From Chrysophaeum taylorii (taxonomy: Eukaryota > Sar > Pelagophyceae > Pelagomonadales > Pelagomonadaceae): a stretch of 64,000 nucleotides of DNA. The DNA lies in contig JAQMWT010000555.1 of the NCBI GenBank assembly GCA_029834535.1, positions 124,001 through 188,000 of the forward strand. The letters run 5' to 3'. The position numbers and the translations under genes are program-made. Below the pieces are notes generated by a model, which worked only from the letters and a program-made list of their open reading frames with translations, was not told the origin of the DNA and did no database searches. Positions 28,154-30,598 of the stretch are shown here, one piece after another (within the stretch, counting starts at the first letter, position 1; the number at the start of each line of letters is the position of its first letter).

Positions 28154-30598
28154 ATGTTACTTTGTTCTGGTTTGTCAACTCCGGCGTTCCTGTCTCAAGC
28201 CACTAATGACTTAGGCTTAAATTTCAATGTAAAAGTTGTAGTTGAGTCTGATGATACGCTTGTTCGTATGTTACGCCACCGTTTTCCTACTGTACTATTA
28301 TTTGAATCTCTCCCCGCCTTTATTAACCATCTTCGCTTAATCTCACCAGAGGAAAGGCGCACATTCTATTGTGATATAATTGAGATCACTCCTCCCTGCA
28401 CAAACAGGAGTTTACTAAAACAACAATAGTCAGAAGACTTACACAGCCTGCTGGACGATTCTCTTTTCGACAGCATGCTGTCTGTCATCAAACTACTCCA
28501 GCCCTTGGTACTACTGGCTGAGATGACGCCTCCGCATAAGTACTGTCACCAAGACCACATCACAGTGGCCAACCTTATCTATGCTACTCTTGATTACTGT
28601 GTCGATGTTGTTGATAGGTTCCCGACCTACCTATGTGGCGACTACCAGTCTAGAGAAAGATGGATATGCGTCGCACGCAGATATTCTACTGGACCAATTA
28701 ACCTATCATCGTGGCCCATCCTCCATCCACGCCCCTTCCTAAAGATCGTGGATGATCTACAAGCTATTCCCAAGCGCCTTTGGCTACCTAACCACATATC
28801 CAAAGACTGGATCCGGGTGTTCCCCGATCCTCCATACATATCCACTCCTAAAACGTTTGCACCTTACTCTCGCACAGGTTCTGCTCAGCTTACTATGGCT
28901 GACCTTGAGTCCCTCAATAAGTTACTACTTCGCCTTCACTCACAACAGGCTCACGAGCAACGTACTCACTCTGTTCAACCCGAGTGTACTTACCATCAGT
29001 TGTGCCTTAAACGCTCCTCTATAGAGCCATTACCTAATGCAACACATCCTATACACGCCAAGATTCTTACAATCCTCTATAACGTGTTCGCAAGCTTACA
29101 TACTAACTCACCCACTTCAGTGTCCTATTACATAACCGTTTTCGAAACTAACCAACCGTCACACAGGTTATTTCTTACAACCTCATCAACATCACACAAC
29201 TCCTACTTCTTAACTGGTGGCCACCATTCCGACGGCAACCTCACCATAGAGAACGCCACCACAAAAAACTCCACTCCCATTAATGCCTTTGGGAGTACGT
29301 ATACGTTCACTGCTTCCGACATCCCCCGCGACCGGGACATGTCCATATATCTGGAGCCGTTTATGGGTTACTTGTGGATAGTCCAAGCCCTTCCCCAAGT
29401 TGGCTCCGCTACCACCTATGGCACCGCCATACAAAACCTCGTGTCCAGATGCGCTCTCGTGATGCCTGGCTGCCTTACCTACAAGGCCACCGACAACTCT
29501 TTCGATTACAAGGATTCTCTTTTTGCTCTGGAAGATCATCACCTATCTCATAGTCGCTATATAGGGTACCTTCGTGGAAGTGACCGCAAACTCGGCTCTA
29601 AAATCCACTCAATGCTTGCTCCATTGCCAACCGTCCGAGGGTATGCCAATATTATTTTACTCGACCCTCGCAACGGGAAATTACGCTACCCCACTCGACC
29701 GGAGTTGATTCGTGCTAACAACCACACCAAACAACAGGAATCCTTCCTCTTGTCTCTACGCCATGACCTTTGCTGTGACATGCTCAGCAATGCTCTGCCT
29801 GCCGGTACGTATAGCACTCTGTACAAGCACCTTTCGCTCATCGTCGCCGATATTAAATCCCTTATGTTGGACCCTACCTTCCAACATACTGCTGCCGTGA
29901 CGAAGAAATCCTATGTATCCAATTTCATGACTGTTGACCCAGCCTCCACCACGTGCAGCACAGATACCTTGTCTTTGGCACAATCTTTTATGATGTCTAT
30001 TTCCAGCAACTGCTTGACCGAAATGTCGTTAAACTATATATCGTCGTCCTACGAAGATACTCTCGCTACTCGTGATAATGAGGATGCACCTCCAAGTGAC
30101 CCTGCTGTGCACCAGGATGACGACGCACCGCCTTCCACTGCCTTAGACACCGAACTCAAGTTCGATGTTCGGCGCAAACGGCACATTCCCGCTCATCCAA
30201 ATCCTCGTAAGTCCCTCGCACACGGATCCACCGAATATCTCAATGCCAAAGAGCGTGCTAATCGCTTTCACCGGGTGCATCACTGCCCCGACAACGTCGC
30301 TGCCAAGGCCCCCAACGTACTTGCTCGCCCTGGATTCTCTGCTTCTGACATACCATATCGCGACTTATGCACCGACTGCATCGCACACAACAAGCGCCAC
30401 CCGCACAAGCATTTCAATGCGACCAAGCCTTCTTTTGAGCAAACCCACAAAGCCGGTGAAGTCTGGGCGTGCGACGGCGGCTATGTGACCATCCCATCCG
30501 AATGGGGAGGCTTCACACATATCATCGTCTTCAAGGAACTCATTTCGAAATTTCTCATGGTGTACTTTACACGCACCAGCTCTGGATTTTGTGTATGA
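28154..30598 (+). pseudogene. C5-cytosine DNA methyltransferase fused in frame to copia integrase
   Basis: One frame spans this interval with a single TAG at 28427-28429. Before the TAG: motif I-like LLCSGLSTPAF, VVVESDD (motif II) and the catalytic Cys motif IV CDIIEITPPCTNRS. After the TAG (numbering from Met at 28475): LLAEMTPPH at residues 13-21 (motif VI, Glu), CGDYQSRERW at 54-63 (motif VIII, RxR), a long variable region that would be target recognition, then LRYPTRPELIRA at 403-414 and MLSNALPAG at 436-444 (motifs IX and X). The same frame continues into LNAKERANRFHRVHHC... C..C (HHCC finger, about 590-640) and integrase WACDGGYVT with its first catalytic Asp at 667. An enzyme that methylates cytosine in DNA is the known role of this fold. 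The stop and a later frameshift make it inactive as read. Confidence 0.75.

Follow-up and report, generated by a model that had tools for sequence, protein, structure and literature searches.

Structure of the element in the window

The DNA analysed here (the window, a stretch of 64,000 nucleotides at contig positions 124001-188000) belongs to a genome assembly of 70.8 Mb in 697 contigs. Judged from its sequence, the region 27974-36290 on the forward strand is a truncated and inactivated LTR retrotransposon of the copia type, assigned to the family that we call group A, which has lost its 5′ LTR, gag and protease and whose 3′ limit is the end of the 3′ LTR. All of its features lie on the same strand. 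A UGA codon at 28094-28096, which separates the gag-protease frame from the frame of the methyltransferase (MTase) and pol, reads TGA in all 18 rows that cover it. A divergent C5-MTase domain, placed by means of relatives, follows at 28154-29131 and has one TAG inside. It includes the motif IV triplet PPC with the catalytic Cys (28391-28399; Cys kept in all 18 rows that can be read there, the window included), the TAG at 28427-28429, a motif VI-like LLAEM (28511-28525; Glu in 19 of 19 rows, again with the window) and a motif VIII-like QSRER (28646-28660), whose first Arg is present in 19 of 19 rows and second in 18 of 19. A spacer without Pfam family (29132-30015) then leads to a repeated 21-nt motif at the MTase/integrase border (30016-30036; further sites at 32142-32162, 34049-34069 and 35194-35214).

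The integrase begins in the same frame as the MTase (30269-30598, the HHCC finger spanning 30269-30379 and the integrase start falling at 30464), and its remainder lies in another frame (30489-31457) with an SH3-like end that scored below cut-off (E 0.00091). The copia-type reverse transcriptase (RT; RVT_2, 32341-33006, E 2.9e-42) occupies residues 276-497 of a different frame, 31516-33477. The end of pol (33435-34031) had no library match, and we take it to be RNase H-like from a motif. Remains of a third ORF and a 3′ untranslated part (34032-35965), a polypurine tract read as GAGGGGG (35966-35972) and a 318-bp 3′ LTR bounded by TG...CA (35973-36290), which shows 94-95% identity to the LTRs carried by the C390 and C42 copies, complete the element. 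The third ORF, found 3′ of pol in group A, is 590 aa long and open-ended in one fetched copy (L013, 1-1770, minus strand); its sole Pfam match was HAUS-augmin3 at E 0.0067, below cut-off.

As the sequence-only reading of this DNA had claimed, 28430-30598 forms an open frame of 722 codons that extends 5′ over 28154-28426 across a single TAG; the other fetched copies read on at that point. The PPC, Glu motif, QSRER, HHCC finger and integrase start were likewise found where that reading had put them, but its motif I lacks the F-x-G-x-G pattern, and the MTase, which it had extended to 29850, is placed here to near 29131, the remainder up to the integrase having no Pfam family. The in-frame fusion that it described reaches the start of the integrase in the window; the full fusion is visible solely in relatives, because the window frame leaves theirs inside the integrase near 30585.

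Position 27974 was rejected as the native end of the element in favour of a truncation adjoining a host repeat of about 1 kb. Homology extends upstream of the equivalent point in all but one of the fetched copies (19 of 20; L025 had no match there), and this upstream part includes an LTR, sequence resembling gag and a protease-like motif. Since these fuller copies carry gag-like and protease-like parts upstream, the lack of gag and protease is a trait of the window copy and not of the element, and the view that the MTase replaces them had to be abandoned: it sits between protease and integrase. When the 5′ part of the element was compared with the window, the 3′ LTR at 35973-36290 was the sole match. 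The host repeat is doubled on each side of the element in opposite orientation (25949-27973 and, inverted, 41483-43764), abuts the truncated 5′ end and is also present in four fetched stretches (L016, L019, L024 and L027). An ordinary-looking host gene with FAST_1 (E 2.2e-19) and RAP (E 9e-19) domains lies near the element at 46715-49183 on the minus strand.

Fuller copies and the order of domains

A DNA search of the genome with 28097-34550 returned 47 rows, including the window and with several copies split between rows; those longer than 3 kb were 86-98% identical. Group A was defined as the 65 rows matching the protein of 28430-30595 (the window included, some rows being pieces of one copy), many of which had no internal stop, with open frames of up to 1727 aa. 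Twenty group A places (L009-L028) were fetched. RVT_2 matched at least 150 places in the genome. Four copies were extended, all upstream and two downstream. Both LTRs were found in three of them (about 315 bp, TG...CA), giving elements of approximately 11.9, 11.4 and 11.4 kb with LTR pair identities of 92.7, 96.9 and 95.2%, and the fourth ended at the limit of its stretch. Target-site duplications of 5 bp were exact in two copies (TTGGT and ACCCT) and one base off in the third. This LTR evidence concerns group A, and the window itself has the 3′ LTR alone.

Directly after the 5′ LTR, GGTTATGGGCCCAG was found in all four extended copies. We take it to be the complement of an initiator-tRNA anticodon arm, comparable to the half-tRNA priming of copia. 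Its own complement occurred 549 times in the genome against 0 for a control, and ARAGORN found no primer tRNA gene at the three places fetched out of nine with the anticodon arm. All three of these (L042, L043 and L044) carry a stretch resembling a tRNA 3′ half that ends in CCA and is followed by TG; they are possibly primer sites of another LTR element on the opposite strand.

The upstream frame of the copy on C311 runs for 892 aa without further stops and combines a gag-like part with an altered form of the protease-like motif that reads FLYFDSCATISLM in L009. Gag- and protease-like frames and DSCA/DGGA motifs are visible upstream, with no Pfam match to gag or protease. The RVT_2 match of the window was equalled in kind by L009 (E 7.7e-42) and L035 (E 1.6e-38). 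The integrase, with HHCC finger and core, precedes the RT in group A and in two related groups, B and C, described below; rve was matched in relatives below cut-off (E 0.0033-0.011) and SH3_retrovirus above cut-off in L038, and the distance from the finger to the integrase Asp is 70 residues in group A and 69 in group B. With the integrase ahead of the RT, and no tyrosine recombinase match in the pol frames scanned, the element is set apart from the Gypsy and DIRS types. In the three copies with both LTRs and in their relatives, the sequence shows the order of copia: a gag-like part, a protease motif, the MTase, the integrase, the RT and a third ORF.

Identity of the methyltransferase domain

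The domain is almost certainly a C5-MTase fold lying within a copia pol, as judged from the relatives. The window pieces 28097-28426 and 28430-30595 gave no Pfam match at E<=1, and a 91-aa window piece matched phrog_116 at E=0.2; because the window pieces fall below detection, the identification rests on relatives. PF00145, the Pfam family of C5-MTases, was found at 57 places in the genome: one DNMT2-like (L001), one DNMT5-like (L002) and 55 others. Ten of these 55 were read and constitute group B (L003-L008, L035-L037 and L041). All ten encode one type of MTase, 72-96% identical to that of L035 where compared, with PF00145 scores of 32.1 bits in L035 (E 1.1e-7) and 29.9 bits in L036 against a cut-off of 22. 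In the profile check proposed beforehand, group B thus scored above the cut-off and group A below it, while the window pieces themselves gave no match. TIGR00675 matched five of five group B proteins below cut-off (best E 1.9e-9). An origin of the group B MTase from the host DNMT2- or DNMT5-like genes was rejected, as it had no close match to either protein.

Continuity of the frame in intact relatives had been set in advance as the test that could refute the fusion, and it was found. The MTase runs into integrase and RT in L009 (1691 aa) and L035 (1952 aa, a single frame that also holds the protease motif), and into the integrase in L010 (1372 aa). The central claim of the sequence-only reading, a C5-type MTase upstream of the integrase in a copia pol frame, is supported by these relatives.

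Groups A and C gave fainter matches. Group C (L038-L040; a search with L038 returned at least 150 rows) is about 51% identical to group A in the MTase, and its MTase identity comes through this kinship. PF00145 was matched by two of ten group A and C proteins scanned singly (E 0.0025 and 0.0071) and in group A scored 17.7 and 16.2 bits, below the cut-off of 22. The only PHROG family at E<=1 was phrog_116, matched by eight of the 12 members of an alignment of groups A and C (best E 0.0023); it is a C5 family, because both host DNMT-like proteins and group B match it too. L038-L040 had no profile match where scanned singly or first, and L039 had none to phrog_116. Comparison of the A/C profile with that of group B gave 264 collinear columns, and none of 150 shuffles reached 200 columns; the score alone was weak, being equalled by four of 150 shuffles. 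In an earlier, thinner comparison, three of 200 shuffles had equalled the score and a reversed profile had scored higher over 31 columns. When the A/C profile was run against 17 windows of the group B polyprotein, the top two were those over its MTase.

The catalytic Cys and Glu are kept. Pro-Cys and Glu are invariant across groups A and C, as are Cys and Glu in group B; Cys and Glu lie 41 residues apart in A and 40 in B, and Glu and the last motif VIII Arg 46 in A and 44 in B. Motif IV, usually read as PCQ, is PPCT or SPCT in A and C. Motif VIII is QSRER in A, QxRxR-like in C and K-x-R in B. Motif I of C5-MTases is F-x-G-x-G, and its usual glycines are missing in all three groups, which read CSGLST in A, CAGLST or CSGLSI in C and AGGLHQ in B. 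An AlphaFold model from a single sequence without alignment was uninformative (mean pLDDT 34.4).

Protein searches found no public homologue at E<=0.001, which is weak evidence of absence because about 8000 candidates, those sharing most words, were scored in each. Eleven Klebsiella phage records were found for a set of C5-MTases from phages, and scans of viral_contigs matched three and two stretches, none of which was confirmed.

The gag-pol junction and a repeated 21-nt motif

The UGA that parts the gag-protease frame from the MTase in all 18 rows is followed by CUA in nine of them, a context that we take to be a read-through signal. At four of 14 loci (L010, L012, L018 and L019) the two frames are in the same phase with this single stop between them, and the remaining loci show further damage. 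Five RNA folds gave no remarkable stem-loop 3′ of the UGA (z-scores 0.02 to -1.25). In group B, the gag stop of L035 overlaps the pol frame (CTTTTTCGCTGATGG), an arrangement that would permit frameshifting, or restarting at the ATG in the overlap.

The repeated 21-nt motif, GACCGNAANGTCGNTAAACTA, lies on the coding strand of group A elements near the borders of modules: gag/protease, MTase/integrase, integrase/RT, just 3′ of pol, and the third ORF. In the window it starts at 30016, 32142, 34049 and 35194 (forward strand). All five sites were found in ten of the 20 fetched copies (L009-L028); the 20 together gave 82 matches with at most five mismatches and with unrelated flanks. The exact pattern occurs 638 and 651 times in the genome, against 0 for a backwards control, and beyond group A elements it is seen as pairs 87 bp apart in frames reading TETSLNY; it was absent from the group B and C stretches tested. 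At the MTase/integrase border it reads T-x-x-S-L-N-Y in frame and, going by this reading, might be a protease cleavage site that parts MTase from integrase. A function at the level of DNA or RNA is no less possible and is favoured, because the site after pol meets a stop in several copies and the codons hardly vary.

Selection, divergence and CpG signature

Pairwise dN/dS was calculated for 18 fetched copies and the window, with L014 and L025 left out, over 108-165 pairs per region; the pairs are not independent, and values are given as medians. These were 0.150 for the MTase core, 0.181 for its C-terminal part, 0.229 for the spacer (residues 346-700), 0.089 for the integrase, 0.296 for the linker and 0.165 for the RT. 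The MTase core is thus about as constrained as the RT, and this purifying selection favours some function for the MTase. Groups A and C are 51, 56 and 64% identical in MTase, integrase and RT respectively, and groups A and B 21, 28 and 38%. Because the identities among the three groups rank alike in all three domains, an old and vertically kept acquisition of the MTase fits these sequences better than a recent accident.

A footprint of methylation at CpG was sought in the substitution patterns of the copies, and no consistent excess of CpG-to-TpG was found at all sites or at fourfold sites. Over all sites, C-to-T stood at 0.0099 at CG vs 0.0102 at CHH, and G-to-A at 0.0056 vs 0.0095. At fourfold sites, C-to-T was higher at CG (0.0271 vs 0.0196) and G-to-A was lower (0.0095 vs 0.0196). 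Self-methylation at CG is consequently unproven, as a consistent signature of CpG decay is absent. The suggestion of the sequence-only reading that the element methylates its own DNA to hide or to regulate itself remains a suggestion, purifying selection speaking for some function of the MTase. Observed/expected CpG was 0.89-0.91 for stretches of groups A and C and 1.01-1.03 for group B, compared with 1.13-1.25 in the parts of the window beyond the element, differences that could also be explained by base composition and coding content.

Proposed mechanism and alternatives

We consider it likely that the MTase is a working enzyme in intact copies. The compound claim, that a high-copy copia lineage carries an MTase between protease and integrase and that this MTase works, seems probable to us in the same measure. 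We propose that occasional read-through of the UGA would yield a gag-protease-MTase-integrase-RT fusion. In the steps after translation, all of which we infer, this Gag-Pol fusion would carry the MTase into the particle, the MTase would methylate the element cDNA (or RNA) before or at integration, and the new copy would arrive already marked. Action on the element's own cDNA is a real possibility, which we would stop short of calling probable.

The same fold could serve another substrate. C5 enzymes include tRNA enzymes, and a DNMT2-like use of the domain would make the RNA of the element, or its priming tRNA, the target instead of DNA. The lack of consistent CpG decay and the primer-site-like stretch 3′ of the 5′ LTR would suit such a role, and methylation of RNA is brought up by de Mendoza et al. 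in discussing the LINE type of DNMT retrotransposon (PMC5890265). Nothing in the present data connects the domain to RNA, however, and the published DIRS-type retrotransposon DNMTs methylate CG in yeast (PMC5890265); we find an RNA substrate unlikely. We think it about as improbable that catalysis has been lost and that the domain now has a structural role in the polyprotein or binds nucleic acid. The change from PCQ to PCT in groups A and C and the degenerate motif I would agree with such a loss, but the catalytic Cys and Glu are kept in every readable group A row, and Pro-Cys and Glu show no variation between A and C, whose MTases are some 51% identical.

Much less credible is that the window segment is no MTase at all and its motif order a product of chance. 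The silence of Pfam on the window pieces, the weak group A profile scores, the lack of matches for group C proteins scanned singly and the weak profile-profile score could all be read that way. Against this, the position of the segment within the polyprotein matches that of the confirmed group B MTase, its Cys-to-Glu distance differs by one residue from that of group B, and MTase families were the best matches in two libraries. We give the least credence of all to an assembly artefact or contamination: the genome is fragmented, but the copies are spread over many contigs and have duplications at their ends, and the contig of the window carries other genes (ADH_N, FAST/RAP). A C5-MTase in a copia pol, probably active, remains our preferred reading.

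The host background bears on what such an enzyme could do. The host is photosynthetic, a stretch of the chlorophyll a/b-binding family (E 1.2e-13) overlapping the DNMT2-like place in L001 on the opposite strand. L002 (C621:16962-20237) opens a 2086-aa frame in which PF00145 lies near the front and SNF2 further on, in phase, an architecture that we take to be that of DNMT5. DNMT5 is a maintenance enzyme. An exon-by-exon search revealed no DNMT1- or DNMT3-like gene among the PF00145 places read (L001, L002 and ten of the 55 others). One could imagine hundreds of copia MTase copies placing fresh marks on their own cDNA, which the host DNMT5 would then keep, the parasite writing and the host copying. 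That the de novo cytosine methylation of the host comes from retrotransposons in this way strikes us as distinctly doubtful; if true, the methylome would be authored by a parasite and copied by its host.

Comparison with known systems

Methylation is the usual route by which transposons are silenced, and what a transposon gains from methylating is a long-open question. Retrotransposons with DNMTs are known as LINE, DIRS and Gypsy elements (SymbioLINE-Dnmt, SymbioDIRS-Dnmt3 and KnitGypsy-Dnmt3; de Mendoza et al. 2018, PMC5890265). As described there, they resemble the present element in that a C5-MTase lies in the coding region of the retrotransposon (inside Pol in the DIRS and Gypsy types), that copies are numerous and that the MTase is under purifying selection. 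They differ in being a tyrosine-recombinase element (SymbioDIRS), a LINE and a Gypsy, whereas the present element has the copia order, its MTase placed after the protease and before the integrase. The charophyte element in that paper is a Gypsy, and the Symbiodinium Copia elements that it describes are without DNMT. Our host plausibly differs from these published hosts.

A 2025 paper (PMC12344493) names, in one sentence, an 'LTR Copia' with DNMT3 as previously reported. Like the present case, that sentence puts a DNMT in an LTR Copia structure, and it may be an earlier notice of a copia-type case among streptophytes; it cites, however, the 2018 paper, which reports a Gypsy in the charophyte, and no description of such a structure accompanies it. 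Among the main texts of open-licence PMC papers, no other report of a copia element with an MTase was found. The CoDi copia-like elements of diatoms are targets of host DNMT5-dependent methylation (PMC9998398) and, like the present element, are copia elements of chlorophyll-c algae; unlike it, no MTase is mentioned for them in that account. The Sola1 DNA transposon of Ectocarpus, which encodes a ParB-MTase protein, offers a further case of a transposon-encoded DNA methyltransferase in an alga, but it is a DNA transposon and its MTase is predicted for N4-methylcytosine or N6-methyladenine and not C5 (PMC12477816).

DNMT-bearing LINE, DIRS and Gypsy elements are known, then, and what is new is a copia family with an MTase between protease and integrase, in a host of this type. 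The capture of C5-MTases by retrotransposons is extended to a copia lineage, in which the domain has a defined position, following the protease and preceding the integrase. A high-copy lineage with a selected MTase, in a host where DNMT2- and DNMT5-like enzymes stand alone among the places read, would make it testable what a transposon gains from a mark that normally silences its kind.
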